Positions 17,405-58,011 of a stretch of DNA of 64,000 nt are shown here, piece by piece. The notes below the pieces were generated by a model. It ran no database searches. It was not told the DNA's origin and saw nothing but the letters and a program-made list of their open reading frames with translations. The DNA is taken from NCBI GenBank assembly GCA_946699065.1, contig CAMPDV010001495.1:1-64000 (forward strand), in the 5' to 3' direction. The DNA is from Loxodes magnus (taxonomy: Eukaryota; Ciliophora; Karyorelictea; Loxodida; Loxodidae). Numbering within the stretch: the first letter of the stretch is position 1; every line of letters begins with the position of its first letter. A program made the translations under genes and the position numbers.

Positions 17405-17433
17405 GATATGGAAAGATATGGAAAGTTATGGAA

Positions 17434-17471
17434 AAAGCTGCGCATTAACAAAGGGCTAAGCGCTCTATAAT
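17434..17471 (+). repeat. shared 3' hairpin tail, copy B
   Basis: Diverged tail: GCGC (from 17440) can pair with GCGC before TCTATAAT, and the interior differs from copy A, but the flanking AGCTGCGC and GCGCTCTATAAT remain. Confidence 0.6.
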
Positions 17472-17914
17472 AGAATTTTTTTATTTAGTTATTATTTTAA
17501 ATCTTTCTAAATCTTCTATGCTTTTCAGAATTAGTTGAAAGTATTTAAATTTGTATTATTTTAATAATTAGAAAAAATAGTTTCTTATTAAATTATTAGT
17601 ATAATACCGAATTTCTTTCTTACTTTATATAAATAATTATTTATATTGGAAATACCAAGCAATGCTTAAATTAATTTTATTGGTTTATGATTATTGCTGT
17701 AAAAGAATTTATTAAGGATTTTTATGACTAAGAATTGAATTTAATTGAATATTTAAATTATTATATTTTTATAGTTTATAGATTGAATAACTATTTTAAT
17801 TGTTTATAATTCAAATTACTAGATTCTTTTTTCTTACTTAGACTTTTATTTCATTATCTACATAAAGCATTTATATCATTTTTCTATTTATCTATTTAAT
17901 TATAAACTTAAAAG
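17472..17914. other. AT-rich spacer
   Basis: Nothing recognised between the LINE B tail and the structured patch. Confidence 0.5.
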
Positions 17915-18203
17915 TTTCTCTTATGAGGGACTAGAAACTCTTTCCCAGCTAAATATACAAGAGCACTCTCTTGAAGCACATAACGTAGTATCCTGGTACT
18001 TAATTCAATAAGCTTCAACCGAGAAGTTCTAAAACTATTGGTAGATAGATTTCAAGCCGCTAGCAAGAGAGAATAGCCAGAAAAATTTGACTCACTTGCT
18101 GAGATTGACTCTAATTAGAGACCTTCTAAGCGACAGGATAGGAACTTGATCTTATCCTAAAAGTAGAAGGTTTGATCAGAAAATAAACCTCAACTCTGGC
18201 CAT
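17915..18203 (+). ncRNA. putative structured RNA or SINE-like unit
   Basis: A GC-richer island in an AT-rich setting with several perfect inverted repeats: CAAGAG/CTCTTG (17958-17963 with 17968-17973), AGCAAG/CTTGCT (18062-18067 with 18095-18100), ACCTTCTA/TAGAAGGT (18121-18128 with 18164-18171) enclosing AGGATA/TATCCT (18135-18140 with 18153-18158). The duplicate at 53085-53368 differs at several positions, and none of those noticed breaks a listed stem. It lacks the shared LINE tail. A protein-like frame exists (SYEGLETLSQL...), but the changes between copies in that frame are mostly non-synonymous, so RNA is preferred. No known RNA family recognised; strand assumed. Confidence 0.4.
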
Positions 18204-18649
18204 TTTTAATTATTAAATTTTTTATTTTAGCAAAATATTTATAAAAGAATAGAATTTCCAATCTTCCTTTAAGTTTAATAATTACAAGTAAAGCTATAAT
18301 TATTAAATAAGTTATATTATTAGTTATAAAGTAAATTATTTAAAAATTGTTTATATTAGCAATTCATAAAGCCAAATTTAAATAATATAGTAATTTATTT
18401 AATTTCTTTATCTAGATATTAAGGTCTCTATTTATATGTTCCTTATAAATAAACTGCTTACTCTATTTATAACTGTTTTCTTTTATATGAGTAGGTCAAG
18501 TTTAGAATGCTTGTAAATAAACACTTTTATTATTTATAAATATACAGTCTAATCAATATAATCACATATACTTTAGTAAGTTTTGACAAATTAGATAGTA
18601 ATTAAATAATTTAAGACTAAAAAGTTAATTTTAATTCGAAAATATTCCC
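18204..18649. other. AT-rich flank of kelch fragment
   Basis: No gene seen. The last 120 bp resemble the 3' flank of the kelch gene at 8250 (around TATTTATAAATATA...), showing that the fragment was copied with its flank. Confidence 0.45.
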
Positions 18650-19122
18650 TTAACAAGCTTTCCCATTTTGCTTTCTTTATCTCATAAGTAAATAAATAAG
18701 CATCACAGTTATATTAATATATATTCTATCTCATAACGATGGGTTAAGTAAAAACTCAATAAGAAGTTTCAAACTCGGCTCCATGCTTTAAAAAGGATTT
18801 AAAATCAAATAACAAAGTATCTATTTTAGGCTTGCTGTTATAGTAAACAAAAGAGGCATTTTTATTCTGTAAATATGCAGCTGTTGTTCTCGCAGCAGTG
18901 GGAAGACAAACATCATTTAAAGTTCATTCGTTAATATCCTTATTATAAACTTATATCGTTTAAATAGTATCATTTCCTCCTACTACATATATTTACTTGC
19001 TTGTTTAAATAGTTCCAAAACATCAAGTTATAACTGAAATATCAGCTATAATATTGAACTACTTGCTTTTTAAATTAAAAACTTCACATACTTTTGTGTT
19101 ATAGCCTGATAGAACATAAATG
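18650..19122 (-). pseudogene. kelch family 2, C-terminal half, block B
   Basis: Matches residues from about 141 (IYVLSGYN) to near the end of the 8250-9146 protein, including IYVVGGN and DINEW (TGA), but the terminal Lys-stop is replaced by other sequence and the N-terminal half is missing. At 19122 it joins an ORF1 coiled-coil sequence; the kelch frame is shifted relative to that ORF1 frame, so no fusion protein results. Confidence 0.65.
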
Positions 19123-19557
19123 TCTGAGATATGTTCCAGAAAGCGCTTAGCACTCTATCGTGAGACGTAAGTCTTAATTCGATTTCATCTTGCTTGTTCA
19201 GATTCTCCATTAATTTGTCGTTGTTCTTTTTAAGCTTCCTGACCTCTTCCTGGAGATTAAGTACCACTTTGATAAGCTATTCCATACTCATCGATCTAGA
19301 AAGATTGAGCTCTGAGACCTCCTCTTAGTGAAGAGCAGACTCTGTCTGCTTCCTTGGTTTCTCTTATGAGGTTGGATTTGTTGTATATGCAGTCTTCTGA
19401 GTTTGTTTATTTTCCTCTCCAAGATATTAGGATTAAGAAAAAGGTGAGGATTGAGGGAAAGAAGACTATCCAAGATTGTATTCATATTTCCACTCCAATA
19501 TTTTGGAGGTGGTGTAAAAACCTCTTTTGAATCCTTCCATTTTATATATTTAAGCAT
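19122..19557 (-). pseudogene. ORF1-type coiled-coil protein fused to kelch remnant, block B
   Basis: A minus-strand start (ATG at 19557) opens with EVFTPPPKYW, comparable to FFTAPKW at the start of the ORF1 at 21521. After a frame change a long Gln/Ser-rich section leads into a strong coiled coil (QLIKVVLNLQEEVRKLKKNN) and the anchor SAFWNISQ. The aligned anchor at 21866-21886 reads AFWNISQ with Trp as TGA (21872-21874), while here it is TGG (19136-19138). The zinc knuckle expected next is absent because the kelch fragment begins. Probable ORF1 of a retrotransposon, truncated. Confidence 0.5.
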
Positions 19558-19789
19558 ATTTTATTATAATATTTAATATTATTCTATATTTATCTTAAAT
19601 CAAGAAAAAATCTATTTTAGCCTTTTTTAATGCTTCTTAAATTCGTTTAAATTGCCAAATTGATTTCGTTATTTAAATTTTCTTAATTAAAAATAGTTGA
19701 TAAATTGCTTATATTTATATATTATTTATATATAAATTGTTAATCCTATATAATTATTATATTTTTTTAATTTAGGAATAAATAAAATT
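19558..19789. other. AT-rich spacer
   Basis: No feature recognised. Confidence 0.4.
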
Positions 19790-20290
19790 CTTTCTTTCTC
19801 TTGTACGATCCTTCAAAAATATTCTTCATTTTAATATTGCTTGCTTCTGTTATTCCTTCTATATATTTGTCCTTATTATGTGCAGTATAATTAATTCATT
19901 CTATTTCATAGATTTGCTTCTTCATTCTTTTGCTTTTTAACGTAATGCCAATATTAACCAACTAAGTGTCCTTTTATCTTATTAAACCAGTATCTTGGAA
20001 TTTTTCTCTATTTATAGACTATTTCTTGATCTGTCTCAATGTTGACTCCATTCGATTAATGTTTTAAAAATTGATATCTTATGAGTTGCAATCTTGCTAA
20101 TTTTTTCTTATACCTATATTAATCGCAAATTTACTTCTAAAGATTCAGGTTTACTGTTGATTTATTTTTTAATTAACTACTATCTTACTGAATGCTCACA
20201 ATATTTGCTAGGAGAGTCTTAATTTTTGTTTAGTTGCATGAATTATCTTTATAAATCCTTATTTTCTGTAAATAATTTTTCAATTACTTT
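19790..20290 (-). other. coding-like stretch of unknown identity, block B
   Basis: The purine-rich minus strand gives protein-like frames, such as IVYKQRKIPRYWFNKIKGH and, after a frame change, KKQIYEIEWINYTAHNKDKY. No family was recognised. The copy at 54950-55455 is nearly identical. It could be a decayed gene or part of a mobile element. Confidence 0.25.
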
Positions 20291-21515
20291 AGTAATAAGA
20301 TTGAGGGTTATCTATATCTTTTGTTTATTCTAAGTCTAAATAATTTAGTTTAATATATAATAATAATTTTCTAAGAAAGATACTTAAATACTAAAATATA
20401 AATTCTTGCTACCATTTTATAAATAAAGGAATTAAATTATTTTAATGTTTATTTAATCTATTTATATATCTTAAGTATCCCTTTATTATTTAAAGCTTAT
20501 TTTTCCTTCTAAACCTATATCTATAAAACTATTTTTTAATTACATTTTAGTAAGATAGTAATAAAATATTAAAAAAGCTTTAAAGATTCATGCTTTCAGT
20601 ATTAGAATCATTTTGCTTGGCTTTCTAGATAACTTTTATCTTAAATAAGATTATGCTTGGAAATTATAAGTAAATATAATAAAATTTAGTATCTATGAAA
20701 TAAGAATAAATCAAATTAAATCTTAAATTTAACTATTTAATAGACTAGTAAATCTATTTAAGCTAAAAAGATAATCATAAATATACCAATATTTTATAAT
20801 TAAACAAACAGTTAAAGTAGATTTAAATAAATAAGAGATTCTTAAGGCTAATTATTTATAAGAGAGATTAACTAAAGTTAACTTAAATTTTTATTTAAAA
20901 TGATTTTTTTAAATAAAATCACAAGGAAAATGATTGAAGTAGAAAAGGCTTGTTGATTTAATTAGAAATAAATATTTAGTTATAATAAATAGAGTTAATT
21001 ATAAAATTTATTTGTGAACTTAAGAAGATTAAAAATTATTAAAGCTTATCAAGGAATAATTTTTATGAATTTCTTCATAAGTTAAAGTTAAATTTATTGT
21101 ATCTTTAAATGATAAATTTTTTATGTTTTATAAATAAAAATAATATTCTCCCATATTTTAAATAAAAAATTTTATCTTAATAGAAATTTTACCATTTTCT
21201 GGATTAATTTATCTTTTTATTTTTTTTTAATTTATATTGGTATAAATTCAAATTTTTCAAAATTTTTTTATAATAAAAATGAGTAAATTTTATAACTAAT
21301 AGAAAGAATCTTTTAAAAATAAATTTATAAGATAGCTTAATCAGATTTAAGAAATTATTATTTATTTAATTTTTATACTTCTTAATTTTTTATTTATAGA
21401 GAAAATTAGTTCTAGTTCCTTTATAATTTATTTATTATCATTTTATCGTAAATTATACATTTTTTTTATTTTTATAATTTATCTTCAAATAACATTCATA
21501 TAATAATACTTTAAG
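20291..21515. other. long AT-rich region without recognised gene
   Basis: About 1.2 kb of very AT-rich sequence. A short segment near 20415-20530 resembles 9765-9880 (AATAAAGGNATTAA...TTTAATCTATTT), a low-level dispersed repeat. Nothing else seen. Confidence 0.4.
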
Positions 21516-21520
21516 AAAAG

Positions 21521-22400
21521 ATGTCAGGAATCAAACCAGGATTTTTCACGGCTCCAAAATGGCAGAGTTAGCGACATACTAGAAAGGCTAGGACAAAAGA
21601 AAAGAATACCAAAAAAATCACCCATCATGATGAGTCTCCCACTCTGAAGATAAGCCTAGGAAAATGGCTAAAAATATAAGGCGCTCGGAATTCTCGAATC
21701 TCATCACATAGAGATAAATAAACTATGATTAACTGATTAAAGTGGTGCTTAACCTCCAGAAAGAGGTCAAAAATAATGAAGAAAAATAATAAGAAGTTAA
21801 TGGAAAAACTTGAACTTGCTGAGAAAATAGTATCGAGATTCATGAACTAAGTAAGAGACCTTAATGCATTTTGAAACATTTCACAAGACTAAAACAACTA
21901 ATCTCAAAACTAAAAAAGAAGAGGAAAGAATTGATCAACAAATTTAAAAAAAAAAAATCAGTATAAATTTCAGCGTTAAATGGAACTGAAAGCATAAAGG
22001 AATTTCCAATGATAATTGAAGGTGAAAATAACTCAAAGATTTCAACCTAAACGAAAAACAAGAAGTTGCTATTATTGTAACTCTCAAAAGCATCTGTGGA
22101 AAAAGTGCTAGAAATTTCTCAATTTCAAGTAAGAATATTGAAACTAGTAGATGTAGTTGGAAAGCAAAAAGAAGAAATAATAACAACTGAAACTATTTAG
22201 AGAAAGGGAAAGATTAAATTTTAACAAATTTACAAGAAAAAAGACATCTAGCATCTAATTAAAAAAAATTAAAGGACAACATGCATGGCAAGGAGAAAAG
22301 TTGTTAAGATTTTCAGATTATTATATTAAGCCTCTAGAGTAATCTAGTGCTGGCGGGAAAGAGGTTGAAATACCTTCAAGAAGGCCAAATGTTTAATTTT
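21521..22400 (+). pseudogene. ORF1 / gag-like protein with coiled coil and CCHC zinc knuckle, block B
   Basis: Starts MSGIKPGFFTAPKW at ATG 21521. A second frame carries DQLIKVVLNLQKEV and, after a further shift, KKLMEKLELAEK and NAFWNISQD. A third frame holds CYYCNSQKHLWKKC (22067-22108), a CX2CX4HX4C zinc knuckle, followed by a basic tail ending near SSAGGKEVEIPSRRPN. Domain order is that of LINE ORF1 or gag RNA-binding proteins. Three frame changes, shared with the copy at 56690, mark it as decayed. No reverse transcriptase follows directly. Confidence 0.6.
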
Positions 22401-22831
22401 GTATTTGTAAGCTGATATAATATTTATTTTTTGCAACCCGAATCCAAATATAATAATTTAAGTTAATTAAATTTTATTTAGTGACTGTTTTAATTAATTT
22501 AAAAAATGTATAAAAGTAAATGTTACTGTCTCCATCTATTTGTTTTAATTAAATTTAATAGGTTTATAAATGTTAATTATTTTTATTAGTATTCACTCTA
22601 TAAATTAATTCTTAGAATTTTAATTTTTTATACTTTTATGTATAGGATAAATTGATTAAGACTTTGGTATTTAAATTAATGAAATTTTAATTATAAAAGA
22701 AGGAATATGATTATTAAGACATATCTCTAGACATTTTATTTTAAATATTTATGTACATGTTTTATACTTAATTTAATATATTTAAATTATTAAATTTTAA
22801 TTTAATATTTAACAAATTATCAATTTTATTA
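22401..22831. other. AT-rich spacer
   Basis: Nothing recognised before the solo tail. Confidence 0.4.
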
Positions 22832-22872
22832 AAAAGAGATGTGCAAAAACGTGATACTAGGCGCTCTATAAT
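22832..22872 (+). repeat. solo copy of the shared 3' hairpin tail
   Basis: AAAGAGATGTGC...GGCGCTCTATAAT followed by AAAATTGATTTATTATT, as after the LINE A tail. No LINE or SINE body is recognisable upstream, so it may be the end of a heavily 5'-truncated insertion or of the ORF1-bearing element at 21521. Confidence 0.55.
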
Positions 22873-22929
22873 AAAATTGATTTATTATTTAAATTTTTGA
22901 AAACTAATTTAATGGAAATAATTTACTAA

Positions 22930-23183
22930 TAATAATAATAATAATATACTTAAAGTTATTAAGGTTTTGCATTTCCTGGAATTTCGACCAGTTCCTGCGG
23001 ACATTTTTTTAAACGTGGGTGTGTTCCACGACCTTTTTTGAAAGTGGGAGGTTACCACTATAGACTTCCAAGTGATCTTGCAAAAAGCTTTTATTTGTAG
23101 ATCCCTGTTGGAGTTATTCATAGTTTATTGAGTTGTCTCCATGTTCTTTTCTGCTCTTATTCGTTTATTCTCTTTCATTATCA
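22930..23183 (-). other. possible C-terminal continuation of the ORF1 at 23184
   Basis: GC-richer minus-strand sequence with several plausible frames, for example HFQKRSWNTPTFKKMSAGTG and, in another frame, GNLPLSKKVV. A GTGGG/CCCAC-type stem region is also present. The true frame could not be decided. Confidence 0.3.
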
Positions 23184-23759
23184 GCAGTTTCTTAATAAAT
23201 GATTATTTTATTTGCAATATCAGCACAGTTTATTTTCTCATTTTTATTTCGTTCTTTTTATCGATAGTTTATTTTCTATTTTTTCTAGTCTTTAAATGAA
23301 GTTCATATCGATCATTTCTTTTCCTGGATTTTATTCTACTTTTGAGTATATTGGTGTCTTTTCTATTTCCATTTTCGTATCATATTTAAAGTTTTATTGT
23401 GGCTAAGTTCAGAGTTATTCCTCCGTTATCAAATTACTTTGAATGAGCTGTCTTCTGAGTATTAATAATTCGTTATTTTAATCCTCTATGCTATTCATTA
23501 ATTCCCTTATTTTTTCGCCTAAGTTGTCAGTTGTTTCTTCATAATTTGAGATTACTTTTTACATTTGGTCTATCTAAATTTAAAGTTTTTGATTAGTTTC
23601 GTTTTTAGGTTAACTTATCTCTATTTATCCTACCATAACTTTACCTGCTGAAGAAGAGCTTGGCTCCTCCTATTGTTATTATTTTTTCTAAATTTCTTTT
23701 GCCGCTTTTCTCTTTAGGTTTCTAAGTTAATTTTTTGAGAGTCGAAGAGATTAATCCAT
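23184..23759 (-). CDS. ORF1-type protein with coiled coil and zinc knuckle
   Basis: An uninterrupted 192-codon stretch from ATG (23759) to the last Cys of a zinc knuckle: MDQSLRLSKNQLRNLKRKAA, a Gln run and EEPSSSSAG, a coiled coil through EKIRELMNSIEDQNNELL and LRRQLIQSNL, then a basic segment and CWYCKQNNHLLRNC (23184-23225; CX2CX4HX4C, one Trp encoded by TGA). The codon after the last Cys is TGA, so it may end there, or continue to about 22930. The copy at 58362-58937 has exactly the same length. A family relation to 1-560 is clear from the shared Ser run and LRxQLIQ anchor. RNA-binding ORF1 of a LINE is the best guess; host co-option is possible. Confidence 0.55.
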
Positions 23760-23917
23760 TTTATTAAATTTAAATTTGATAGTATTTTAAAAATTAAAAG
23801 TTAAAATATATTTATAAATAAATTAAACACATAAAGTATTATTTTTATATATCATATACTTAATTCATTATATATATTATTAGTCAAAACTTATATCTTT
23901 ATTATAAAAAATACATC

Positions 23918-23945
23918 AAACTCGACAAAACTCGAAAGATCGATG
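23918..23945 (+). promoter_or_regulatory. AACTCGA repeat upstream of TRIM-like gene
   Basis: Two copies of AAACTCGA and a related GATCGATG lie 35-62 bp before the ATG at 23980. Similar tandem motifs precede the diverged paralogue (31575-31613) although flanks are otherwise dissimilar. Possible transcription element; role inferred from conservation only. Confidence 0.35.
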
Positions 23946-23979
23946 CTTTAAATTTTAAATTTTAATTTAAATTAAAAAA

Positions 23980-25638
23980 ATGAAAATCAAGTAGGTTTGC
24001 TTAGGCTGCTAGAACTAATTCAACTAAAAGGCAAATTATCCTTAAATTCTTCCCTGCAAACATGACTTATGTAAAAAGTGCTGTTTTGATTAATATAGAA
24101 ATAACTAGAAAATAGTATGTTAAGTTTTAACTTGCTAATAAGAAGCAGTTTAAGATCCTTTAGAGTTTGAAATGAATGCTTTCTTACTAAGTTAAATCTA
24201 ATAAGAAGAGAGTAAAGATAATGAAATATCAAATGATTAAGAAAGAATCTGTAGAAAACATTCCAAGCAACTTATCTTTTACTGTTTTTAAGACTAAAAG
24301 CTATTATGCAATAAATGCATAGACTCTTAAACTCATAAAAGCCATGTAGTTAAAGAAGTTTGCGAGGCTTAACAAGAGTTGAAATAAGAACTCGCTTAGA
24401 TTGCTGATTCTATGATTTAAAATATGAACTTAATACAAGAAAACTGCAAAAGAACCTAAAAAATAAAAGAAGCATTTATAATTAAAGAAAAAGAGTTCTA
24501 GAAATACATTCAATAGCAAGCACAATAGTATTGCTCATATATTAATAGCAAAATGAAAATTTACATCTAAGAAAGTAAAGAAAAAACTGAAGATTTAATT
24601 TAAGAGATTGACTAGAGAACATAAAACTGGAACTCAATTTATTAAATGCTACAAGAGTAGAACTTCAGTGTACCAAACGATCCTTTAGAAGCAATGGAAC
24701 TAAAAAAGAAAGTTTAAGATGTTTAGTAATGGACAGAAGGAGAAATAAATGAATAAAGTGTGAACTTAGTAATCTAAACAGATTTTGATTAATATGATCA
24801 TAGTAAAGTTTCGTTTTAAATTGATGTTCTTGGATTTATAACTGATGTTAAAAGTAAACTTAAAATCAGTATTTTTAGTCATTTATTATTCGCTGTGAAA
24901 GATAGTTAAAGTATGATTAAATACAATACGTAAAATGGATAAATTGAGAAAAATATTTTAAACATTTAGAAAATGAATGGAGAATTCAGAGCAATATAAA
25001 TAAATTAAAACACTCTTGTAGTTACAGGAGGAAATGAAGGAAAATAAATTTATGATAGAATAAGTATAATAAAAAGCTATTAAGTATAAGATTACTAAAT
25101 GATCTAAGCTAGATAAGGACATAGTATTGCTTTTCATAATATAAGAAATTCCATTTTTCTAATATCTGGTTACAATAATACATATATCAAAAATAATGAG
25201 ACCTTTAGTTTAAGTACATTTTAGTCGCATTAGATAAGTGATATTATAGAAGCTTCGTATTTCGGAAGTGCTGCAATATTAGGGGATATTCTTTATAATT
25301 TTGGAGGATATAACGAATAAAAATATTCCTAAAGCATTTAAAAATACGAAATTTCATAAGATAGATGAACAAAACTATTATTACAACTTCCTTAAGCTTC
25401 TTATACTCTTGCAAGTTTAGTGAAAAATAAAATATATGTATTTAATGATGGAAATAATATTTTAGAAAAAGTATTTTCATTTGAGCAAGAAATTTTATAA
25501 GAAATCGAAAAAACAAAGTCTAGAGGTTACGTTTACAATATGCCAATGTTGGTCAAAGATAAGATTTATTTCTATGAGGGTTCGAAACTCACTACTTTTG
25601 ATTTAAACAATTTACAGTGGGAAAGCAAAAATATATGA
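23980..25638 (+). CDS. TRIM-like protein: RING, B-box, coiled coil, kelch repeats (copy 1)
   Basis: 552 residues, ATG to TGA (25636-25638), no frameshift. RING-type zinc finger at about 7-52 (CLGC, then PCKHDLCKKCC, then a Cys pair); B-box at 91-122 with Cys91, His94, Cys102, Cys110, Cys113, His119, His122 in canonical CX2HX7CX7CX2CX5HX2H spacing; coiled coil at about 125-245, Gln-rich, with many TAA/TAG codons; kelch repeats at about 290-550 (VVTGGNEG, ARQGHSIAF, LYNFGGYNEQ, ISQDRWTKL, IYFYEG). Trp463 is TGA. RING and B-box proteins of this layout are typically ubiquitin ligases whose C-terminal propeller binds substrate; activity here is inferred. Two paralogues in the window (31641, 59158). 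Confidence 0.88.
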
Positions 25639-26334
25639 TCTACAAATATTAAAGAATATTAATTTGATTAAGAATTAATAATTTTCTTTTTTTAAGTTAT
25701 AACTTAAGCTAGATTAAGCTTAAAAATCTTTTAAATATAATTTTTTGTAACTTATTCATTATCATTTTTCTTGCTGTCATTTGTATAACCAGATTATTTC
25801 TGCCTTTTTAGAACTTAGAAAATATTATTTCTTTTTTCTTATTTATTTTTTAATAAAAATTAACATTTTTAATAAAATTATCTTGTAAATAAAAGGAAAG
25901 CTTAAAGATCTTAGGAAATGATTGATAAATAAAATTAGAAATTTAATTAAATGTTTAATTAAAGTTTATATATTAAAACTATTAAAATTAAATTAAAAAT
26001 AGCATTTTATATTTATCATTGTATGCTAAATTTATAGTTATCTTTCTAATTATTTTCAATATTAATAACAATAAATAGAAAATATAAACAATTAAATTAA
26101 AAAAGGAGACTTTAGAATAATTTTATCTTTTTGTGAAAATAAATAAAATAAAAAGCTTACTAAGTAATTATATATGATAACCTTAAAAATTAAGTATTAA
26201 ATGCTTTCATAACTTTATCTACAATCTACTGATGAAAATAATATTAATTAAAATAAATATTAAATTAATTTTATATTAAAAATATTAATAAATAAGTAAA
26301 TTTTATTTGTTTTTACTATATTTCATATAGAAAT
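25639..26334. other. AT-rich 3' flank
   Basis: Extremely AT-rich; no gene, repeat or RNA recognised. Confidence 0.45.
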
Positions 26335-27480
26335 TAATTTATTTCTAACTCTATTTCATCATCTTGAAGTATTTCTCGTTTATCTATTCTATTTACTTCT
26401 CTCTTCTGCTTGCTCTTTCTTTCATTGTCATTATCATCCTCTCGCTTCATTTCTTCTGCCTCTCTGTTAAAGTAATCTAAATAAAGTTACATTCCCTATA
26501 AAATTTAGTTATTTTATCAAGAATATAAATTATTTTTTAAAGTAATTTGTTTAAATATTTTTAATTTTAAATAAACTTGCTAAATGTGATTTTTGGCTTT
26601 TAAAATATAACTGAGATAGCTTGATTATAGAATAAGAGTTTAATTATATCATAATTTTTTAATTCTATAAATTCTTAAATATTTTCTGTCAGAACTTCAC
26701 ATTACTATATATGAGTAAAAGAATACATACTCCCAAAATACATATTTCAGAGTGCATAATTTATAGTACCTTTATTGTAAGTCGTATTGGAAATTTTAGA
26801 AAATGTTCTAAACTTATTAATGAAAACTATTTCTTTAATCATTTTTTTATTTAAAGTAGTATATGTATAAAATTAAAATTACTACATTCTAGTATATTTG
26901 ACTCCTTAATAAAGGCTTGCAGTTGGTACTGCACTCATTCTGCTTACTGTCTCTAGGTAAAATTTTGTAAAAATTCATTTTTTATAAAATTCAAAGACTC
27001 TCTAGATGTTTTTTCTCCTTCATTTTCTATTCAAGTCAATTAGGAATCGTAAATTCAAACAAAATTCATTATTTATTTCTCTTTTATAAATTCTTTTTAT
27101 GATGGATGAATGATTTTCGCTCATAAATATATCCTTAAAGCCTTTAAATAAGCAATTTATTATAAATTTTTAAGAAATATTTATGATAGCAGATGATCTT
27201 CAGTTCTTTCAACCTCTTTTAGTCCCTTTTTTTAATATGGATGATTCTTATTTATTTTAGTATGCTAGGAATATTTTATATCCTTAGCATATTATTCATC
27301 AATTTTAGATTTACTAAATGAAACTCATGATTAGCGTATTTTATTTATTCTACTTTAATTCCATCTGCTCCAGATGATTTGTTATTCTTCAATTTTTTTA
27401 TAATTTTTTATATTACATTTAAGCTAACAAGATTTAATCCTTACAGATATGATGCTTAATATTAAAAAATTTGTAATAAA
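26335..27480 (-). pseudogene. reverse transcriptase fragment of another LINE family, block B
   Basis: The minus strand from 27430 begins KNNKSSGADGIKVEQIKYAN, the conserved start of LINE reverse transcriptases (K-x-G-x-DGI...E..K), followed by NIPSILKQIRIIHIKKRD. Later sections are less clear. The end is a highly charged tail (EAEEMKREDDNDNERKSKQK). The family differs from family 1. Catalytic FxDxxKAFD and YADD boxes were not found within it, so the copy is internally deleted or decayed. Same at 61510-62650. Confidence 0.55.
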
Positions 27481-27493
27481 TAAATAAATAAAA

Positions 27494-27600
27494 ATGATTA
27501 TAGAGCGGATAGCCCTTCATTGGCGCGAGATTACTCGCAATGCAGTATAAACTGCACCAGATTACCTACTAATTTGTCTGACGTGGCCGACATCCATTTT
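27494..27600 (-). mobile_element. reverse tail with SINE-like GC-rich head, block B
   Basis: On the minus strand a GC-richer stretch contains hairpins TGCAGT/ACTGCA and GCGAG/CTCGC and ends in CCGCTCTATAATCA, a variant of the shared tail. In the copy at 62666-62770 the first stem is kept with a changed loop, and the second changes C to T, which still allows a G-U pair. Probably a short SINE or truncated element ending. Confidence 0.5.
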
Positions 27601-28185
27601 ATATATAATAAAGATAAATTAAAGTATTTTCTTATATTTCATATTATTTTCTAACAATCTCAATCTCTAGAGATTTAAATGGTTACATATAGTAGTGTAA
27701 TTTAATTTGGTAATTGCTATCAGCTTTTTCTTATTTATTTTATTTGCATATCCTATTTGCTAGTATTTTATATTTTTACCCAAACTAACTTTCCTTTAAA
27801 CATATTATGGCTCTAAGCTTTTCAATTTTTTTACAAAATTAGAAAAAAAGTTTATAAAAAGTAATTAGAAAATAGAAATAATATATGAAAATAACTTAAA
27901 AGAAGGGTACTAATACTATAACGAAATGATGAAGATGGCTCAATTTTATAAAATTAGATTAAGTGACAAAAATAAATATAAATCTAAAAATATTTGGTAA
28001 GCATTTTAATAATTAAATAAGCTAGATTTTATATAAATTCAAAGAATTAACAAAAGTGACTACAGCTAATAATTTGCTTAATAATTCAAAATTTGTCTTA
28101 ATTTCCGGAAATAACATATTTAAAACTTAATAAACATTACGCAAGAGAAATTAATAGCTATATAAAATGAGAGCCTAATCTTAAT
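27601..28185. other. AT-rich region, possible LINE remnant
   Basis: No motif recognised; plus-strand purine content rises from about 27840, suggesting it may be the upstream part of the LINE fragment that follows. Confidence 0.35.
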
Positions 28186-28620
28186 TTTCGGAACCAATTA
28201 TAAAACTGCCATTTCCCTATTGCTAATCCGAATGTAAATGTGGAGAATACGACACATTTGAACATACTGTGATATGTATGTTTTATTAACACTTAAGAGA
28301 ATGATTTTATAATAGATTAGGAATCATGATATTATTAGGCAGTTCTTTATGACCAGGCATATATCAATTAATTACCTAAAAAGTAATTAGAATATTAGAT
28401 CTTTAGATAAAGAATTTTAAAAAAGCTTATATCTTTTAGAGTTTAATTCTTTTATGTATTAGATGAAGTCGGAAGAGCAATAGTCAAATCAAATGAACAA
28501 AAGAAGAGAGATTGCTGATTTGTTTTTTTTATAGACTTTAGAAATGTCTTTGGTTGAAAGAAGTAGTTCTTACAATTAAAGATATCTATATACTCTTAAA
28601 GTTTAAATTAATGAATTAAT
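28186..28620 (+). pseudogene. LINE fragments: C-terminal zinc motif and reverse transcriptase box, block B
   Basis: CKCGEYDTFEHTVIC (28233-28277) is the CxC...H...C motif that ends many LINE proteins. Downstream, at 28519-28557, the frame reads FVFFIDFRNVFGW, the first catalytic box of reverse transcriptase (F-x-D-F..VF). The zinc motif normally lies after the polymerase, so two fragments have been brought together or the element is rearranged. The copy ending the window reads FVFFTDFKNVFDW, nearer to the canonical form. Confidence 0.55.
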
Positions 28621-28925
28621 CTTAATGTATTCTTTCAGTATTGTTTATTTAATTTTTTCTATTTCTCCTATCCTTTTATCAGTAATTTATTTGAAGATCA
28701 GACATTTAATTTTTTGAAGAATTACTTCTTTGAATTACAGAATATCTTCTGTTCTCCTTTTTTTTAATATTTTTTCATCCTATCATTTCTTTAATCTCTC
28801 AAAACGATTTAATTTTACAATTCTTGCTATTTAATTACTTTTTAATATATTTTTAATCTATTTATTTATTTAGTATAGGTAAAAAATTAATTATTAAAAC
28901 TTTATTAACTAAAATAAAACGCCTA
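28621..28925. other. pyrimidine-rich AT region
   Basis: Minus-strand frames are lysine/glutamate-rich but without motifs. Nothing named. Confidence 0.35.
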
Positions 28926-28930
28926 ATAAA

Positions 28931-30080
28931 GATGGGTTTTTAGGCCACTTCCTCAGAGCAGAAGAGAAAGCCAGAAGCATTTTCTCTTACCGCATCATAA
29001 CTTCAATAAGTCCAACCTTTACAGACAAACATTAAAAAATTATGAAGATAAAAAGAAAAATTCAGAACAGAAGAATTACCAACTCTCAACATCTTCATTG
29101 GAAACTAAAAAATAGATTACTCAATTTAATCTCTGAAATTAATAACAAAGATATAAATGAACAAGGAAAAGTAGGATAAATCAATATAGACTCTGATACC
29201 TTTAATCTAGATAATATTGAAATAGAATAAATGGACTCTTAATAGATGAAGCAACTAATTTTCACACTAATAGAAAACTAAAAAACTCGAAGAGGATTTA
29301 ATCTCATAAAAAGAAGAAAAATCGAAATAAGTAAAGATTTAATAAACTATGAAGATTATGATGAAGTCTATATGGTAAACCGAAGAGCTAAAGCCGGGAT
29401 CTATGAATGAATGACAGGATTAGAAAAATATATTTGAATATTGAGAGAGTAAGACGAGAATAATTGAGTTTAATTAGATTCAAAATCCATTAAATCGAAG
29501 AAATTTTGCAGAAGACTTCAAAAGAAACCTCCATGGAAATAGAAAGACAAGAAAGAACAATTCATAGACAAAGAAAAAGATGCTAAATTTTAAAAAGTAT
29601 GTGACACTTTTGATGGAAATGTACAAGACAAAAAAGAATAAAAATTACCATCTAAGAAATATTAACTTGTAGGAACTGAAAAAAGAACTACTGAATTTTA
29701 ATTGCACTTAGTTGAACAAATAGCTTAGACAAGAATATATCAGTATATATAAACTTAATACACAATCCTATAATTTTCGAAAAAATATTTAAGATCGTCA
29801 TTATCATATTGATAATCCCTATTATAAATGGAGAGTATGATACGTTCGAGTACATTTTAAATGCATAAACTATTCTAATATAAGGGATTGACTATCGTAA
29901 AAGAATGGGAATTATGACTCAAGATGTCTATATTATGTGATTAAGGACTTATAAACTCACTTTTAAGGTTTAAATTTGAGTATTTAGATTTATAAATAAA
30001 AATATTTCATAAGAAACTAATATCAAGAAGACTAGAATTATTAAAAATGTCAAAATCAAAAAAGGAAAAAATAAATTATA
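28931..30080 (+). mobile_element. non-LTR retrotransposon family 2, internally deleted
   Basis: The leader (GGGTTTTTAGGCCACTTCCTC and onwards to AATAAGTCCAACC) is clearly related to the family 1 leader at 38678. It is followed by an unrelated-looking ORF (29042) and then, at about 29790-29870, a decayed copy of the zinc-motif region at 28186 (TATTGATAATCC...TAAATGGAGAGTATGATACG). Polymerase and endonuclease are absent, so a large internal deletion is inferred. End approximate. Confidence 0.55.
29042..29790 (+). CDS. ORF1 of LINE family 2 (partial)
   Basis: From ATG 29042 a single frame of about 250 codons has even composition and no shift: MKIKRKIQNRRITNSQHLHW, an acidic section (DSDTFNLDNIEIEQMDS), then NYEDYDEVYMVNRRAKAGIY and a basic stretch (KSKKFCRRLQKKPPW). 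Several Trp are TGA, Gln mostly TAA/TAG. Placement directly behind the LINE leader suggests ORF1. No zinc knuckle or known domain was seen. The 3' end runs into the decayed zinc region, so no stop is assigned. Confidence 0.5.
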
Positions 30081-30399
30081 AAACTATAACAAGATTAATT
30101 AAAAATTGATGGGATAAAGAATATATTTAAAAAACATTAAAAACATTTACTAACGTCTATAATTGAAGGAAGCTATTTTTACAGTTATAGATTTATAAAA
30201 ACTCTTTTAGTTTACAAATTTTAATTTAATAAATAAAATTTATGTTTTAAAATTAATTAAAATTTCTTAATTATAAAAAAATAAAGAAGAGTTTGTTCTA
30301 TTTATATGCATTTTAGTAATAAATATTTAAAATTTAATTTTTAATTTAGATTATTAATATTATTACGAGAAATCTTATATTCTCAAAAATATTTCCATA
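30081..30399. other. AT-rich spacer
   Basis: Nothing recognised. Confidence 0.4.
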
Positions 30400-30820
30400 T
30401 CTCATCTATCTCAAATGTTTTCCATTTATTAAATTAAAAGATTTAATCCTTAAATATCTTAATTTTTTTCAATATAGTTCTTTATTTATTTTGACTATGT
30501 CTTTTGTCTAAATAATATCTTTTACTATGTAGTTGTCATTACATTACAATTATCTTTCTTGTATCTTAAATAAAATTTTAAGGTTTGATTTTTGGCTTTT
30601 TATTTCACTATATTTTTTTGAACTGTAGAAATTTAATGTTTTCTGTATAGATTGTTTCTGCGATCCACACCAATAAAACTTTTTATTTTCGAAAGTTTTA
30701 TTCGATTTACAACCCCAATCTGCATTCTAAAACCCTCTATATAACCCAAGATTGTGTTTTTTGCTATTTTTATATTATTTACTCATGCTGTTGATATTAT
30801 TTCTTCATTATCATATAAAT
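30400..30820 (-). other. coding-like stretch of unknown identity
   Basis: A minus-strand frame gives protein-like sequence including DNEEIISTAWVNNIKIAKN, ILGYIEGFRMQIGVVNRIKL and SFIGVDRRNNLYRK, with Trp as TGA. It abuts the SINE start at 30821. It may be part of a LINE or a decayed host gene; not recognised. Confidence 0.3.
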
Positions 30821-31144
30821 AAATAGGGTAGAGCAATCCTCCAACTGAAACTGACTTAAACTCTGGTACCAGGAAGTAGCTCATAGATGAAGAACCAAAC
30901 AAAAATCTTGGTAGGAGCCAAGAGAAGAGAAATGAAGACAAATTGAAGAGGCTTCAAGTAACATTAATGTTGAAAGATACCAGATACTAAGGTCTCTTAG
31001 GGTAATATTCCGATCGAGACCTATAGAAGACAAAATTCGCAAGGTAATGCTGGTACTGTATAAGACTTCAGCAAGGAATTTTTTTATTTTAAAAATCTTT
31101 ATTAAAGAGCTGCTCACTATTGGAGTGTTACGCGCTCTATAATC
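30821..31144 (+). mobile_element. SINE type 1, plus-strand copy
   Basis: Starts near AAATAGGGTAGAGCAATCCTCC; body motifs TCTTGGTAGGAGCCAAGAGA, GGCTTCAAGTAAC and ACTAAGGTCTCTTAGG in the same order as the other copies; shared tail AAAGAGCTGC...GCGCTCTATAATC. In the tail the inner stem is CACT/AGTG (31115-31118 with 31124-31127) instead of AACG/CGTT, a pairing-preserving difference. Confidence 0.7.
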
Positions 31145-31570
31145 TCATTTATTTATTAATTATTGTTATCTAGTTTTAAATTAATTTAGTTTTTTGGTGT
31201 TAATAAATAAAATGCTACATAAGAAATCTCTCTTACAGCCTTATGGAATAAAAAATATGTTCTACTAGTTTACACTTATTATAAATTGCTATATATAGAT
31301 TCACTTCTTCTTTATATTTTAAAAATATGCTTCTGAATCTTACTAAATAAGATATAAAACACTCATGTAGTTTGACTTTTAATAGCAAGCTATTTTTATT
31401 TAATTAGTTTTTAAGATTTGACTAAAAGTTTAGTAGAAATAAAATTAATAAAGAATTACTTAAAAATTTAATTTTATTAGTTTAAATTCTAAAATTATGC
31501 AACTACTATAGTTAGTTTATTGTTTAAACCTTTTATTACATCTTATTCATTTAATAAAGTATAAACTCCT
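31145..31570. other. AT-rich spacer
   Basis: No gene seen up to the repeats that precede the next TRIM-like gene. Confidence 0.45.
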
Positions 31571-31574
31571 AAAA

Positions 31575-31613
31575 ATCGAAAAAACTCGAAAAAACTCAAT
31601 GCAATTGCTCGAA
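31575..31613 (+). promoter_or_regulatory. ATCGAAAAAACTCGAAAAAACTC-type repeat upstream of TRIM-like gene
   Basis: Repeated CTCGAAA units lie 28-66 bp before the ATG at 31641, as at 23918 and 59097. Candidate core promoter or regulatory element. Confidence 0.35.
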
Positions 31614-31640
31614 ATTATAATTTTAAATTGAAACTTATAA

Positions 31641-33302
31641 ATGAAAATTATGTAGACCTGCTTAGGCTGTTAGATGTGTTTTAACTAAAAGGAGAACTAG
31701 CCTTATATTCTCTCTTGCAACCATGACTTATGTAAAAAATGTTGTTATGACTAATTCGTAAGCAAATAGAAGATAATTTGCTAAGTATTATCCTGCTAGT
31801 AGGAAACTATTTAAAATATCTTAGAATTACAGATAAATATTGCCTTACTTAATTAGATAAACCAAGAAGAAGAAAATAGAGAAACTAAAACATCTAAAGG
31901 TTAGTTATAGAAATGCGCGGAGCATTCCAAGCAATTTATGTTTTACTGTTTTAGTGACTAGCAATTGATATGTAAAGCATGTACCAAGTCATAAGCACAT
32001 TGCAATCATGAAATAAAAGAAATTTGTGAATTTTAACAAGAGTTTAAAAAAGAACTCGCTTAGATTACTGACACTTTGAGTTAAAATATGAACTTAATAT
32101 AATAAAATAGTGAAAGAAGCTAATAAATAAAGGAATAATTTTTAACTAAAGAAAAGGAGTTCTAGAAATATATCCAATAGCAAGCTCAACAATATGGGCA
32201 TTTTATTAATAATAAAATGAAAATTTACTGTTAAGAAATTTAAGAATAAGCTGAAGATCTATCATGAGAAATAGATTAGAGAACTAAAAACTGGAATGAA
32301 ATAAGTTAAATGCTCCTTAAGTAAATTTTTAATGTACCTAACGATCCTTTAGAAGCAATTGAACTTAAAAATAAAATTAAAGATGTTTCATAATGATTAG
32401 GAGGTGAAATATAAGAGCAAAGCATAAACTTAGTTAATAAAATAAATTTCTAGTAATTTGAAAAAAGTGTCATCTTATTTTAAATCGATGTCCAAGAATT
32501 TTTAAGCAATATTAGAAATAAATTTTTAAGCAATTAATTTATTCATCTGTTATTTGCAGTAAAAGATAGCTAAATCATAATTAAGTATAATACACAAAAT
32601 GGACAAATTGAGAAAAAAATTTTAAATATATAAAAATTTAACGAAGAATTCCGAGCAATATAAATAGATTCAAATACCCTTATAGTTACAGGAGGATATG
32701 ATGAAAAATGTATTTATAATAGAATAAGTATTATAAAAAACTATTAAGTTTAAAACTATTAAATGATTCAGGCTAGATTTGGGCATAGTATTGCTTTTCA
32801 TAGTAAAAGAAACTCTATTTTTCTAATTTCTGGAGCGAATAACTCATTTCTCAAAGTCAATGAAGTATTTAATCTGAATTCTTTCTAATCTTAGAAGTTA
32901 AGTGATATTTTGGAAGCATCCTATTTTGGAAGCGCAGCAATATTAGGGGATATTCTTTATAATTTTGGAGGATATAATGACTAATAACATTCCTAAAGCA
33001 TTTAAAAATACGAAATTTCATAAGATAAATGAACAAAACTATGATTACAACTTCCTTAAGCTTCTTGTACACTTGCAAGTGTAGTAAATAGCAAAATATA
33101 CATTTTCGAGAATGGAGATAGTAATTTAGAAAAAGTATACTTCTTTGAGGAAGATTCTTTATAAGAAGTAGGAAATAAAAAGAAAAAAGATCACGTGTTC
33201 AATATGCCAATTTAAGTGAATAATAAGATTTGATTCTTCGACAATTCATAGCTCATTACTTTTGATCTAAAAACTGTATAGTGGGAAAATAATATAATCT
33301 GA
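31641..33302 (+). CDS. TRIM-like protein: RING, B-box, coiled coil, kelch repeats (diverged paralogue)
   Basis: 553 residues, ATG to TGA (33300-33302), open throughout. Same order as copy 1: RING (CLGC, LSCNHDLCKKCC), B-box (CAEHSKQFMFYCFSDQQLIC), coiled coil, kelch repeats (ARFGHSIAF, ILYNFGGYND). It uses CAA/CAG where copy 1 has TAA/TAG at several Gln (for example before ARFGHS), and TGA (32394-32396, residue 252) where copy 1 has TGG (residue 251). Five internal TGA codons, against one in copy 1. Equal length despite wide divergence implies selection on the protein. Likely role as copy 1: RING-type ligase with a propeller binding domain, inferred. Confidence 0.87.
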
Positions 33303-35370: not shown

Positions 35371-35539
35371 AACTATCTTAATTAAGTAATTTTAAATTTT
35401 AGATAATAAACTTAGATTTTATTTAAATACTTTAGCTTATATCTATTTAATCTATTTATCTTTAATTATATAATTTATAGTTTAATATTTAATACTTTAT
35501 AAAATCTAGGAAGAACAAATCAACACTATTACTAAAATA

Positions 35540-35914
35540 ATGTTTCTAAGGAAATTTATATGAAAGACAAAATCATTTTAAGGAAGTAGATAATTTAGAA
35601 AATTTGGAATAGGAAATGCTAAATACCAAATATATCCTAACTTACTGACTATTCAACTTCCTATTGCTACTAGAACAACAGCTGCTTATATATAAAATCA
35701 AAAAGCTTCACTTGTTTATTACAATAGTTGTCCAAAGTTAGATACTTTACTATTTTATTTCAAATTCTCTGTAGTACATGGAGATTAATATTAAACTCCC
35801 GCATATGTTTTCACATAGCCTGTTGTTGTAAGATAGACAAAATATTAATTTAACTATGATAATAATCTATTCTCTTATGACCTTAGAAAAGCATAGTGGG
35901 AGAGAAAAGGATGA
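35540..35914 (+). CDS. short kelch family 2 protein, internally deleted
   Basis: 124 residues, ATG to TGA (35912-35914). The N-terminus (MFLRKFIWKTKSFQGSRQ, then KFGIGNAKYQ) matches residues 13-41 of the 8250-9146 protein. After IYPNLL the sequence jumps in frame to IQLPIATRTTAAYIQN, matching residues from about 213, and ends with FSYDLRKAQWERKG. About 165 residues of propeller are missing without loss of frame. The alignment also extends upstream (QEEQINT), but the family's first ATG is ATC here, so the internal ATG is taken. Upstream Gln is CAA where the homologue has TAG. Could be a real short protein or a pseudogene. Confidence 0.55.
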
Positions 35915-36084
35915 CTAAGATGAATTCAAAATATTTAAATTTATTTCTTTAAATCTATTTTTTTAATTTTATGCATATTTATGTATACTGATGGAGTTTT
36001 GCTTTAGTACATTTTTTTGTATAAATATGAAACATTTTAATTGTGTTCGATAAAAATTGAAATTTAAATTATTAAATTATTAAA
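35915..36084. other. AT-rich 3' flank
   Basis: Nothing recognised. Confidence 0.4.
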
Positions 36085-37143: not shown

Positions 37144-37770
37144 AAAATTTATCTATTCCTTTATTATTTATGATCTTTTTATCATAAAAAATGCATTCAT
37201 GTTTAAATAGTAAAAAATTTAAGTTTCAGTAGTTAGTTAGTAAATTCCAATAGTTTCCATCTCTATTTAAATTATTTTATTTATAATTTTACTCTAAATA
37301 TTCTTTAGTACCATTTGGTTACTTTAAGTTTCATTTACTTTTTTGTAGAATTTTTATTTTATAAATATCAAGAAATGCTAACTCTTTTATTTAAGATTCT
37401 AACTTTATTACTTTCATTAGAATCTAATAATAATTATTTTTATTGCAGTTACTAGTTTAGTAAATAAAGAATAGTTGCATCTATATTATTTACTTTGATG
37501 TAAGCAAATATTAAAGTTATAAAATAAAGTACTGATAATTGGTAGCATTTAATCTACAATTAAGCTAATTAAATTAACTTATTTATTTAACTTCTGTATC
37601 TTTAATTTTAGCTTCTATTTTCATAACTAAACTATAAAGAGATCTTTTATTTGCTTTATTTATTTTAAATCTACTGAAATAACTTAGTCCAAAATTTAGA
37701 ATATTTATAAATATATTTTAGAAATAAATGGAATTATTTTGCTTATTTAATGTTAGTATATTATAATTTA
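37144..37770. other. AT-rich spacer
   Basis: Nothing recognised. Confidence 0.45.
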
Positions 37771-38088
37771 AATAAGGAGGAGCAGTCCTACAACTAAGAA
37801 CAAAAATAATTTTCGTTTCAGGAAGTACCTATGGTGTGAAGAAACAAGCAATGATCTTGGTAGGAGTCAAGAGAGAGCTCAGTCTTTGAGGCATCAAGTA
37901 GCAACAGGTTGAAAGACGCTAAGACTCTAAGGTCTCTTAGGGAAACATTTTATCCTCAGCCCTATTGAGACAAAGTTGATACAGGGGAATTCTAGCACAT
38001 GAAGAGACTTCCTAAAGACCTTTATAATAACTAATAAAAAAATTTTAAAGAGCTGCAAGACAGTGTGGTATAACGCATTCTATAATCT
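37771..38088 (+). mobile_element. SINE type 1, second plus-strand copy
   Basis: AATAAGGAGGAGCAGTCCTAC head, ATCTTGGTAGGAGTCAAGAG and CTAAGGTCTCTTAGGG body motifs, tail AAAGAGCTGCAAGACAG...GCATTCTATAATC. More diverged than 30821-31144, notably in the tail. Confidence 0.68.
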
Positions 38089-38677
38089 AAGTTTTTTTTA
38101 TCTATTAAATATTTTGTCTACCTTGCATCAAACAATTTTTTAGTTATACAGACATTTAAAAAAACATAAATATCCATTTTAACTATATAATTTTTATCGT
38201 GCTTCGGTTATTAAATTTTAAAGCTTGAATATCAATTAAAAGGAAATCTTTAAAGATGCTTAAATTAAAATTTAGTAGATTCTAATTTTTTAAATTTAAG
38301 TTTATATTAAAATAAATTTGATAATAGTGTCAGTTAAACTTTTCTATTTAAACCTACGTAACTAAAGAATAATTTCTTCTTCCTTTAATATTTGAGTATT
38401 ATACTTTAATTAAAAAACTAAATGTTTATTATTAAATAAGTTATAATATTTATTATAAAGTCTAATCAATTGAAGAAGCTAGTTATATTAGTAGTCAGAA
38501 AACCTAACCTAAATTACATATTACCTTAATAAAATTCCTTAATCTTGGAATTAAGTTTATAATTTAAAGGTTTCATATAAATAGACTGCTTATTTAATTA
38601 TTAGTTTTATCCTTAAATAATAAATAGATAAAATTAGATTGTTTATAAATACCACTTATATATAAAAAATGGTTACC
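38089..38677. other. AT-rich spacer
   Basis: Nothing recognised. Not similar to the flank of LINE A, so this side of unit D is independent. Confidence 0.45.
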
Positions 38678-39718: not shown

Positions 39719-42700
39719 ATGAGAATGTACTATGCTAAGAAACCGAAAAACAAAAATGAACAATTATCCGACTTCAACTAATAGGAAAAGGAAAAAGAAG
39801 AAGAAGAAGATTAGAATAGATAAGAAGAAGGAAAAGGTAGATAATAAGATGAAAAAGATAAAAAAGGGGAAAGAACTAATAAAGAAAATAATATGGAAGC
39901 ATAGAATGATAGATAAGAAGAAGAAAAGGTGGAGAAGGAAGATGAATAAAAAGAAGAATAAGGTGAAGAGGAAGTAGAGGGAATGAGTGTTAAAAAAGAT
40001 TAAGAATAAGTCATAAAAATAGGGACAGCAAATGTTAGGGGAGTAAGAAGTGCAAAAGAGGTACTAGCCAAATTAATGACTCAAAAATGTATCCACATAA
40101 TGACAATATAAGAGATTTAGATTGAAGACTAAAAAAATATGTGTAATATAGCAGGATATAAAAACTTAATAAATGTGGGATCAAAAAAGGAAAAAGAGTA
40201 ACATTCTATATTAGAAACGACATATGTAAGGAGATCAGAGAGATAAAGAATGAAGTAAACCAAATGACGCTTTTTGGAGGAGCGAGAGTAATGGCAATAG
40301 AAATAATGAAATAATTAGCAGTAATAAATGTTTACGCTCCTGTTGCAAATAACAACGAACATTATGAGCCTTTCTATAATTTAGTGAATGAATTTAAACT
40401 ATAAGCAATAGAAAAAGGACTTAATATAATGATAATAGGAGACTGAAATGCGCACATAGAAAAATGACTGCCAAAGAAAACAAACTCAGCAGGAAAGAGA
40501 ATGGCACAGTTTATGGAACAGAATAATTTAATATGCCTTGATTCAATTGAAATATTTACTTTTGTTCACTAAAATATTTAATATAAAATAGATTACTTTT
40601 TAATTGAAGAGATAATGAGAGAAAAGATGATAAAAGTATTTTTATTGCTCATACGTAATAGGAGACCATAGGCCTGGTATTATATAGGTAAAGATGGGTA
40701 AAGAAATAAGAAAGCCATAAAAGATAGCAAAAATAAACTACCTACTATTAAAGAAAAAAGAGATATAAGAAAAATTTGAAAGATTTATACGAGAAAATCT
40801 CTAAGAAGAAGAAATTGATAACCTAAACGACACATAGACTTATAAATGATGAAAAAAAAGATATAAGAAGGAGTTTAAATGGTATGTGGAAAATTTAAAA
40901 CATAAAACTCTAAGATATATAAATATTCAGAAACAACAAAATAGTGTAATAAAATTTACAGAAAATGCAGCAAACAATTAAAATAAAGGGTAAAGAACAG
41001 AGAACAAATAAATGAAAATCAATAAATTGAGAATCAAAGAGAATACCAAAGAGTAAGATAAGAATACATTTAATCAAGAAAAAAAGGATAAAAGAAACTA
41101 ACTAAACCTATTTATGGACAATGTAAATAAAGGAAATCAAACAGATATGTGGAAGAAACTAAAAAGCTTACTTAATAGAAAAAATAATTAGTGATTACCC
41201 TTTCCAAAAGAAGATGTTAAGACTTTTAGGGACGAATGATAGTAGTTATATGAAGATGGCGATAAAACATTACCAAATAAATACTTAAACAAGAGACAAA
41301 TAATAGTAAACTAAAATGAAATTTGAGAAAACATTAAATAATTGGCGAAATAGGAAGCAACAGGACATGGTGAAATATAAGTAGGTACAATATTAGCAGA
41401 TGGGAAAAAATTAATAGAAGTAACTTGCAAAATGATAGTTAAGATGATTTAAGAAGGAGTATACATTAGGAGATGAAATAATAATACATAATATTAATAT
41501 ACAAAAAAGGAGGATAGACGAATCCAATAAACTATAAACCAATCTCTTTATTGAATCGTACTTTAAAAATTGTAGACTCATGAATTTTCTAGTAATTGTA
41601 AGGATATCTGCATAATGATGAAAGTAAATATTAATATGGCTTTAAAAAAGGAAAATCATACTCACTATAAATTTTCAACCTAAGAACAGTATAGAAATGA
41701 TGATGTGGAACAAAAAAGATGTTTTTGTAATATTTGCTGATATTAAGAAAGCTTATGACTCGACGCAAAAAAAAGATATATGATAAATCCTAAACGATCT
41801 AAAAGTATCGGAATAGATATTTAAATTATTAGCAAACTTTTACTGTGAAGAAGAAATTAAACTTAAAATCAATGAATAAATAGTATAGATATTTCGCGAC
41901 AAATAAAGGTTAAAACAGAGAAAAATAAAGTCACCGAGACTATTTAACCTAATAATGGCAAGAATTCTTCATAACTTGAAAGATTAAAAGCTAGGAATTA
42001 CGATAGACTATAAAAATGAAGAGGGATGAACATAAGAAATATATTCAGGATGCTTTGCATATGCAGATAGTCTAGCTTTAATAAGTGAATGAGAATAATT
42101 AGAGGAAGTAATCAAAAATTTAACCTCATGGGCAGAAAAATACAAACTGGAAATTGCAGATAAAACAAAATGAATGATATGAAAAGCAGGAGAAAATAGT
42201 AACTGAGAAAAGATTGGAAATACTATCGAGGTGGGAAATTTAAAGATCGAAAGAGTAACGACCTTTTAGTACTCTGGTCATATAATAGAAGAGAACATCA
42301 GTTTTGAAAAACATATAGAGAATAGACTTGAAGCAGCATAAAAGATGTAAGCATGAATGCTGGGAAAAATAACAATAAATAAGAGATTAACACCATATAA
42401 TGCAGGAATAATGATAAACCCTTCGTAAGCTCAGTTTTCAGCTATGGGACAGAAGTTATCCCATATTGCGAATAATTTGTAGCAAAATAAGTGAGGGAAT
42501 AATTAGAAATCTTATAGAGAAGATCTTTACGAGCAATCATAGATGCTCCTTTCTAAGTGTAAAATGAGATGCTAGAATACGAGTTACAGTTTATGAAATT
42601 TAAACATTACCTATGGCAGAAAACGCTGAGATTAATAGGCAGACTAATAGTAACTAAGGAAAAACAGTAGATGGATTAATGTTCGACCTAAGTAAAGAAG

Positions 42701-52569: not shown

Positions 52570-52599
52570 GATATGGAAAGATATGGAAAGTTATGGAAA

Positions 52600-52636
52600 A
52601 AGCTGCGCATTAACAAAGGGCTAAGCGCTCTATAAT
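52600..52636 (+). repeat. shared 3' hairpin tail, copy C
   Basis: Same sequence as the copy B tail (17434-17471). Confidence 0.6.
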
Positions 52637-58010: not shown

Positions 58011-58011
58011 A

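Follow-up and report, generated by a model that had tools for sequence, protein, structure and literature searches.

The genetic code of karyorelict ciliates, Loxodes among them, was reportedly described by Seah and colleagues. We analyzed a stretch of 64,000 nucleotides of DNA (hereafter, the window) that contains three copies of a gene encoding B-box and kelch domains. The window is contig 1495 of a genome comprising 7843 contigs and 705,730,643 bases, which we searched for homologues; loci of this genome are designated by L numbers. The window almost certainly uses NCBI table 27, and its most likely source is the nuclear genome of the karyorelict ciliate Loxodes magnus.

The code itself is already known and is not new: it has been published for karyorelicts including Loxodes magnus (PMC11441545), and the same code was found in Parduczia (Swart 2016; PMC4967479). 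In the first of these papers, UGA is termed "the only stop codon," UGA and UAA, unlike UAG, become scarce upstream of the stop, and the macronuclear assembly of Loxodes magnus contains abundant elements of the long interspersed nuclear element type (PMC11441545). A proposed model holds that these codons are translated by default and that eRF1 prevails where the poly(A) tail is near (PMC4967479). A Loxodes tRNA-Trp(CCA) with a 4-bp anticodon stem has also been reported (PMC13092985, PMC12005148); a scan of the window found no tRNA. Under this code, TAA and TAG inside coding sequence are read as Gln, TGA distant from the mRNA end is read as Trp, and translation is ended by a TGA directly 5′ of a short, A+T-rich 3′ untranslated region. 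The present analysis observes what each codon means, that TGA stands at the end of genes, and that base composition drops at this TGA.

The window matches the code of Parduczia and Loxodes in that TAA and TAG specify Gln and TGA specifies Trp or stop (PMC11441545, PMC4967479). It further resembles karyorelicts in the absence of TGA and TAA from the last 20 codons of its kelch copies, in the A+T-rich sequence after the stop, and in its non-long-terminal-repeat (non-LTR) elements. No difference was found in the window, whereas genome-wide a few apparent TAA ends contrast with UGA as "the only stop codon" (PMC11441545). Condylostoma magnum (table 28) is similar in that all three can be sense codons, with a meaning that depends on context (PMC4967479); there, however, TAA, TAG, and TGA all terminate, whereas TGA does so here in nearly all genes examined. 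Blastocrithidia (table 31) shares TGA as Trp, an altered eRF1 residue 70, and one stop codon with two meanings (PMC12153298), but its TAA and TAG encode Glu rather than Gln and its sole terminator is TAA. In Amoebophrya sp. ex Karlodinium veneficum, all three stop codons are likewise reassigned (PMC6394959, PMC12005148), but this organism is a dinoflagellate relative, and the elements found here fit Loxodes.

Conserved proteins assign Gln to TAA and TAG and Trp to TGA

The initial annotation of the window named karyorelicts as the best fit, with internal TAA and TAG as Gln and TGA as both Trp and terminator. Homologues from outside the window agree with these assignments (Rab switch II and actin for all three codons, eRF1 for TAA and TAG only), and TGA ends histone H4, eRF1, and most of the actins and Rabs fetched.

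Rab/Ras domains were taken from the first 50 of 150 scored matches. At the Trp of the WDTAGQE motif, the codon was TGG in 31 domains and TGA in 15, with TAT in 2 and TAC and TTA in 1 each. The catalytic Gln was encoded by TAA in 32 domains and TAG in 13, the remainder being CAA (3), CAG (1), and ATG (1). In 39 of the 50 Rabs, manual reading places a Cys motif no more than three codons from a TGA; 3 have TAA, and 8 lack a Cys motif and are uninformative; in 18 of the 39, the TGA end lies in a different frame from the domain, which we took to be shifted by an intron. Codon usage near the end was counted in 24 Rabs, including three (L104, L122, and L132) that were partly read in the wrong frame at the end. 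TGA made up 0 of 480 of the last 20 codons versus 23 of 4373 earlier codons and TAA made up 9 of 480 versus 132 of 4373, neither difference being significant, and TAG made up 21 of 480 versus 69 of 4373. The Rab paralogues L131 and L138 provide a neat example of TAG as Gln, as their last codons differ only synonymously, including TAG versus CAA before TGA. A CCNC-TAA end for L131 was rejected, since all four codon changes relative to L138 are, by eye, synonymous in the frame ending TAG-TGA and CAA-TGA, respectively.

eRF1 is represented by two genes, L010 and L011; the best PF03463 match, L009, which we take to be Pelota-like, was set aside. Each eRF1 gene carries TAA or TAG at nine human Gln positions, including Q185 of the GGQ motif (TAA). 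Their aligned parts contain 19 and 20 TAA/TAG codons in total, of which the 10 and 11 away from human Gln face varied residues. Internal TGA is absent from both genes, and a terminal TGA stands close to the ends of their homologues. Based on the alignment for L010 and on reading for L011, human residues Ser70, Tyr125, and Asp128, in or near the stop-recognition motifs, are replaced in both by Ala, Phe, and Glu, respectively, with NIKS and GGQ intact. In Blastocrithidia, the eRF1 change Ser70Gly is associated with UGA readthrough (PMC12153298). Ala70 may act in Loxodes as Ser70Gly does there and would favor Trp at internal UGA.

For the actin family, we aligned 20 of 96 matches, picked to favor those bearing TGA, to two PDB actins. 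Of 20 aligned TGA codons, 10 fall on Trp, 5 on Tyr337 (a single event shared by five near copies), and 5 elsewhere. Grouped manually into distinct events, 8 of 14 are at Trp, a residue that occupies 4 of 370 columns (p about 5e-13), and TGA was found at three of the four actin Trp positions (W79, W86, and W340). Of 53 TGG codons in the actin-family loci, 45 are aligned with Trp. The codon for Gln137 is TAA in 14 of the 20 loci, TAG in 2, and a Ser codon in 4. Fifteen loci end at TGA (KCY-TGA, 7; KCF-TGA, 4; KCI- or KCP-TGA, 2; KFFC-TGA, 2), two have TAA at the expected end, and three (L077, L083, and L084) have no clear end. A sequence pattern for histone H4, which could equally have picked up TAA, TAG, or TGG, returned a GG-TGA end in 9 of 9 matches and none in the reversed control.

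Three kelch copies in the window end at a conserved TGA

All three kelch copies lie on the plus strand. Copy A (positions 23980 to 25638) has 552 codons plus a terminal TGA and contains 59 in-frame TAA/TAG codons (46 TAA and 13 TAG) and 1 internal TGA. Copy B (31641 to 33302), whose protein is 64% identical, contains 55 (37 TAA and 18 TAG) and 5 internal TGA codons. Copy C (59158 to 60816) contains 57 (44 TAA and 13 TAG) and is 98% identical to A; because it sits in a 17-kb duplication, the comparison of A with C is not independent evidence. The gene had been described as TRIM-like: Pfam detected the B-box and kelch motif above cutoff in all three copies, whereas RING had no match.

Differences between A and B at codon positions 1, 2, and 3 number 113, 101, and 193 (p about 1e-8), and the ratio of nonsynonymous to synonymous substitution rates (dN/dS) is 0.24. 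This third-position excess and low dN/dS indicate that the kelch frame is a selected coding frame. Across the nine codes tried, however, dN/dS ranged only from 0.237 to 0.299, so it is uninformative for choosing the meaning of TAA and TAG. Direct reading and residue alignment bear out two codon pairs put forward earlier, TAA in A (24643 to 24645) versus CAA in C (59821 to 59823) and TGG in A (24730 to 24732) versus TGA in B (32394 to 32396). The Trp of the kelch DRW motif was correctly read as TGA in A (25366 to 25368); TGA is also present in C (60544 to 60546) and in B, where the motif is DKW (33030 to 33032). Among the 141 kelch repeat matches listed for the genome, 17 contain TGA, mostly at positions that are aromatic by eye (such as GG[W]N, LNDL[W], and NK[W]); this count, of one per group of near-identical rows, was taken as support only.

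The terminal TGA occupies the same place in all three copies (25636 to 25638 in A, 33300 to 33302 in B, and 60814 to 60816 in C), as had been proposed. G+C content over 100 nucleotides falls at this codon from 0.30 before to 0.14 after in both A and C and from 0.26 to 0.12 in B. Directly 3′ of it, the A-B alignment contains frame-breaking indels whose lengths are not multiples of three. The last 20 codons of the three copies contain no TAA and no TGA, with two TAG codons in copy B, a pattern that fits the published depletion of UGA and UAA but not UAG before the stop (PMC11441545). The earlier statement that all terminal codons are TGA holds for these three copies but perhaps not for the whole genome, where a few TAA ends are apparent.

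TAA as a candidate second terminator

Several observations do not fit table 27 cleanly. Three of the five internal TGA codons of kelch copy B fall on non-Trp residues (opposite copy A, the five face TGG once, TGA once, and TAA, TTA, and TAT once each), as do 6 of the 14 distinct actin events, in both cases in divergent copies. Copies of a retroelement in the window switch frame between two motifs, IQEIQIED and GDWNAH, and look decayed. Finally, TAA stands at the expected C terminus of four genes (L082, L087, L117, and L130), with a fifth, L113, being ambiguous.

The Arp1-like gene L087, whose best PDB match is an Arp1 chain with one residue after KT, reads KTF-TAA, with the next in-frame TGA 22 codons on. 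L082, called Arp1-like through its likeness to L087, reads KTC-TAA, with the next in-frame TGA 39 codons on. The Rab L117 reads CNC-TAA and meets its next TGA 42 codons on, whereas its relative L103 has CNC-TGA. In the Rab L130, read across two frame changes that we took for introns, CCN-TAA is followed by no in-frame TGA in the ~111 codons left of the fetched stretch. L113 reads CLIF-TAA and is ambiguous because another frame has TGA there. G+C content in the 100 nucleotides 3′ of the TAA is 0.21 in L117, 0.22 in L130, and 0.15 in L113, compared to a mean of 0.331 (minimum, 0.230) after 174 TAA codons inside Ras domains and a mean of 0.230 after 33 Rab-tail Cys-TGA motifs. In the Arp1-like genes, G+C content of the stretch from TAA to TGA is below that of every coding window of the same length (0 of 292 and 0 of 319). 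Together, the position of TAA in these four genes and the drop in G+C content suggest TAA as a rare terminator.

On balance, these sequence features tip us slightly toward TAA serving as a functional second terminator for a minor fraction of genes, where it would be sense inside the gene and stop near the end of the message, with TAG being sense only. Against this, sense TAA accounts for 9 of the 480 codons that close TGA-ended Rabs (the last 20 of each), and the four genes with a candidate TAA stop could be decaying copies with a mutated TGA. The Rab11-like gene L120 ends CC-TAA-AAT-TGA (CCQN), where TAA is sense just two codons upstream of the terminal TGA, which speaks against the notion that TAA near the end always stops. 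The abstract of a 2022 karyorelict paper is said to state that stop-UAA may be used by a small minority of transcripts; if it does, a lead of this kind has been raised before. A literature search for "karyorelict" together with "stop-UAA," which did not take in that paper, returned no paper.

Alternative readings of the three codons

The same apparent TAA ends, in the Arp1-like genes L082 and L087 and the Rabs L117 and L130, would also be expected under the Condylostoma code (table 28), where each of the three codons serves both as sense and as a possible stop. We consider this code very unlikely here. No clear TAG end was seen among the actin-family and Rab loci examined; TGA stands at the end of all 9 H4 matches, 15 of the 20 actin-family loci, and 39 of the 50 Rabs; and the assembly fits Loxodes. 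In addition, sense TGA before the last 20 codons accounts for a rough 0.5% of Rab codons (23 of 4373, with three of the 24 genes partly in the wrong frame), versus 0.042% in C. magnum and 0.120% in Parduczia (Swart 2016; PMC4967479).

If the window instead held pseudogenes under the standard code, Gln and Trp codons would have decayed to stops in retroelement-rich, A+T-rich DNA. Single G-to-A or C-to-T changes suffice to turn TGG or CAA into a stop, and the retroelement copies do switch frame between motifs, which makes them weak evidence by themselves. However, the kelch pair is under purifying selection, the Rab catalytic Gln is TAA or TAG in 45 of 50 domains, and the eRF1 genes carry 19 and 20 such codons in their aligned parts. 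The eRF1, actin, and Rab data have already refuted this explanation, which retains a negligible probability. Equally negligible is a reading of TAA and TAG as Glu (as in Blastocrithidia, table 31), Tyr, or Lys: between kelch A and B these codons face Lys 10 times, CAA/CAG 8 times, and Glu twice, pairs that are not decisive because they come from A+T-rich paralogues alone, and the Gln positions of Rab (catalytic), eRF1 (GGQ), and actin (137, 263, and 353) have already refuted it.

Retroelement fragments and other features of the window

A non-LTR retroelement endonuclease fragment at 14642 to 15000 (plus strand) was named from its motifs, IQEIQIED with TAA and TAG and GDWNAH with TGA, between which the frame shifts; it has no Pfam match. 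A second copy at 40106 to 40460 (plus strand) carries the same codons. The annotation had argued that IQEIQIED needs Gln and GDWNAH needs Trp at these codons, and we read I-TAA-E-I-TAG-IED at 4805, 14642, 40106, and 49804 and TGA in GDWNAH at 14974 and 40438. Pfam found no match in translations of 2 to 9 kb and 18 to 24 kb (three plus frames each), 17.4 to 24 kb (three minus frames), or 38 to 42.5 kb (one plus frame), and the retroelement labels therefore rest on motif reading. In the motif AFWNISQ, TGA at 21872 to 21874 (plus strand) does align with TGG at 19136 to 19138 (minus strand), but the pair is weak evidence, as this copy can be aligned in more than one frame. A fragment of a second kelch family at 18492 to 19082 (minus strand) is related to 35495 to 36043 (plus strand). 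A reported pairing of TAG in the leader of this family with CAA at 35.5 kb could not be located in the main frame of the alignment between these two copies; that frame pairs CAG with TAA, TAA with TAG, and TAG with TAG.

Frame length was rejected as evidence for the code, as frames closed by TGA only are no longer than in shuffled sequence (591 codons at most in the window versus up to 855 in 10 Markov-shuffled sequences). Much of the window consists of near-identical duplications, with 11857 to 28828 repeated at 47015 to 64000 (17 kb, 97.5%) and 1 to 7157 repeated at 9840 to 16995 (96.3%). A dispersed element of ~200 to 350 bp occurs at 1770 to 2090, 11606 to 11927, 30820 to 31172, 37769 to 38120, and 46817 to 47017 in copies that are 68 to 96% alike; the copy tested had no Rfam match. 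A short, G+C-richer island amid A+T-rich DNA at ~27500 to 27590 also lacked an Rfam match. Rfam returned no match in the whole window at the gathering score and none in 27400 to 31250 at E values up to 1.

Implications for termination in Loxodes

To a code already published, this analysis adds an RNA-free check anchored on orthologues (Rab switch II, actin, eRF1, and H4). What remains of interest is the possible TAA terminator and residue 70 of eRF1. Where no codon is reserved for stop, as in this code, the view that stops are necessarily unambiguous is called into question, and named loci with a seeming TAA stop would make the question of which codons eRF1 still releases on in Loxodes directly testable.

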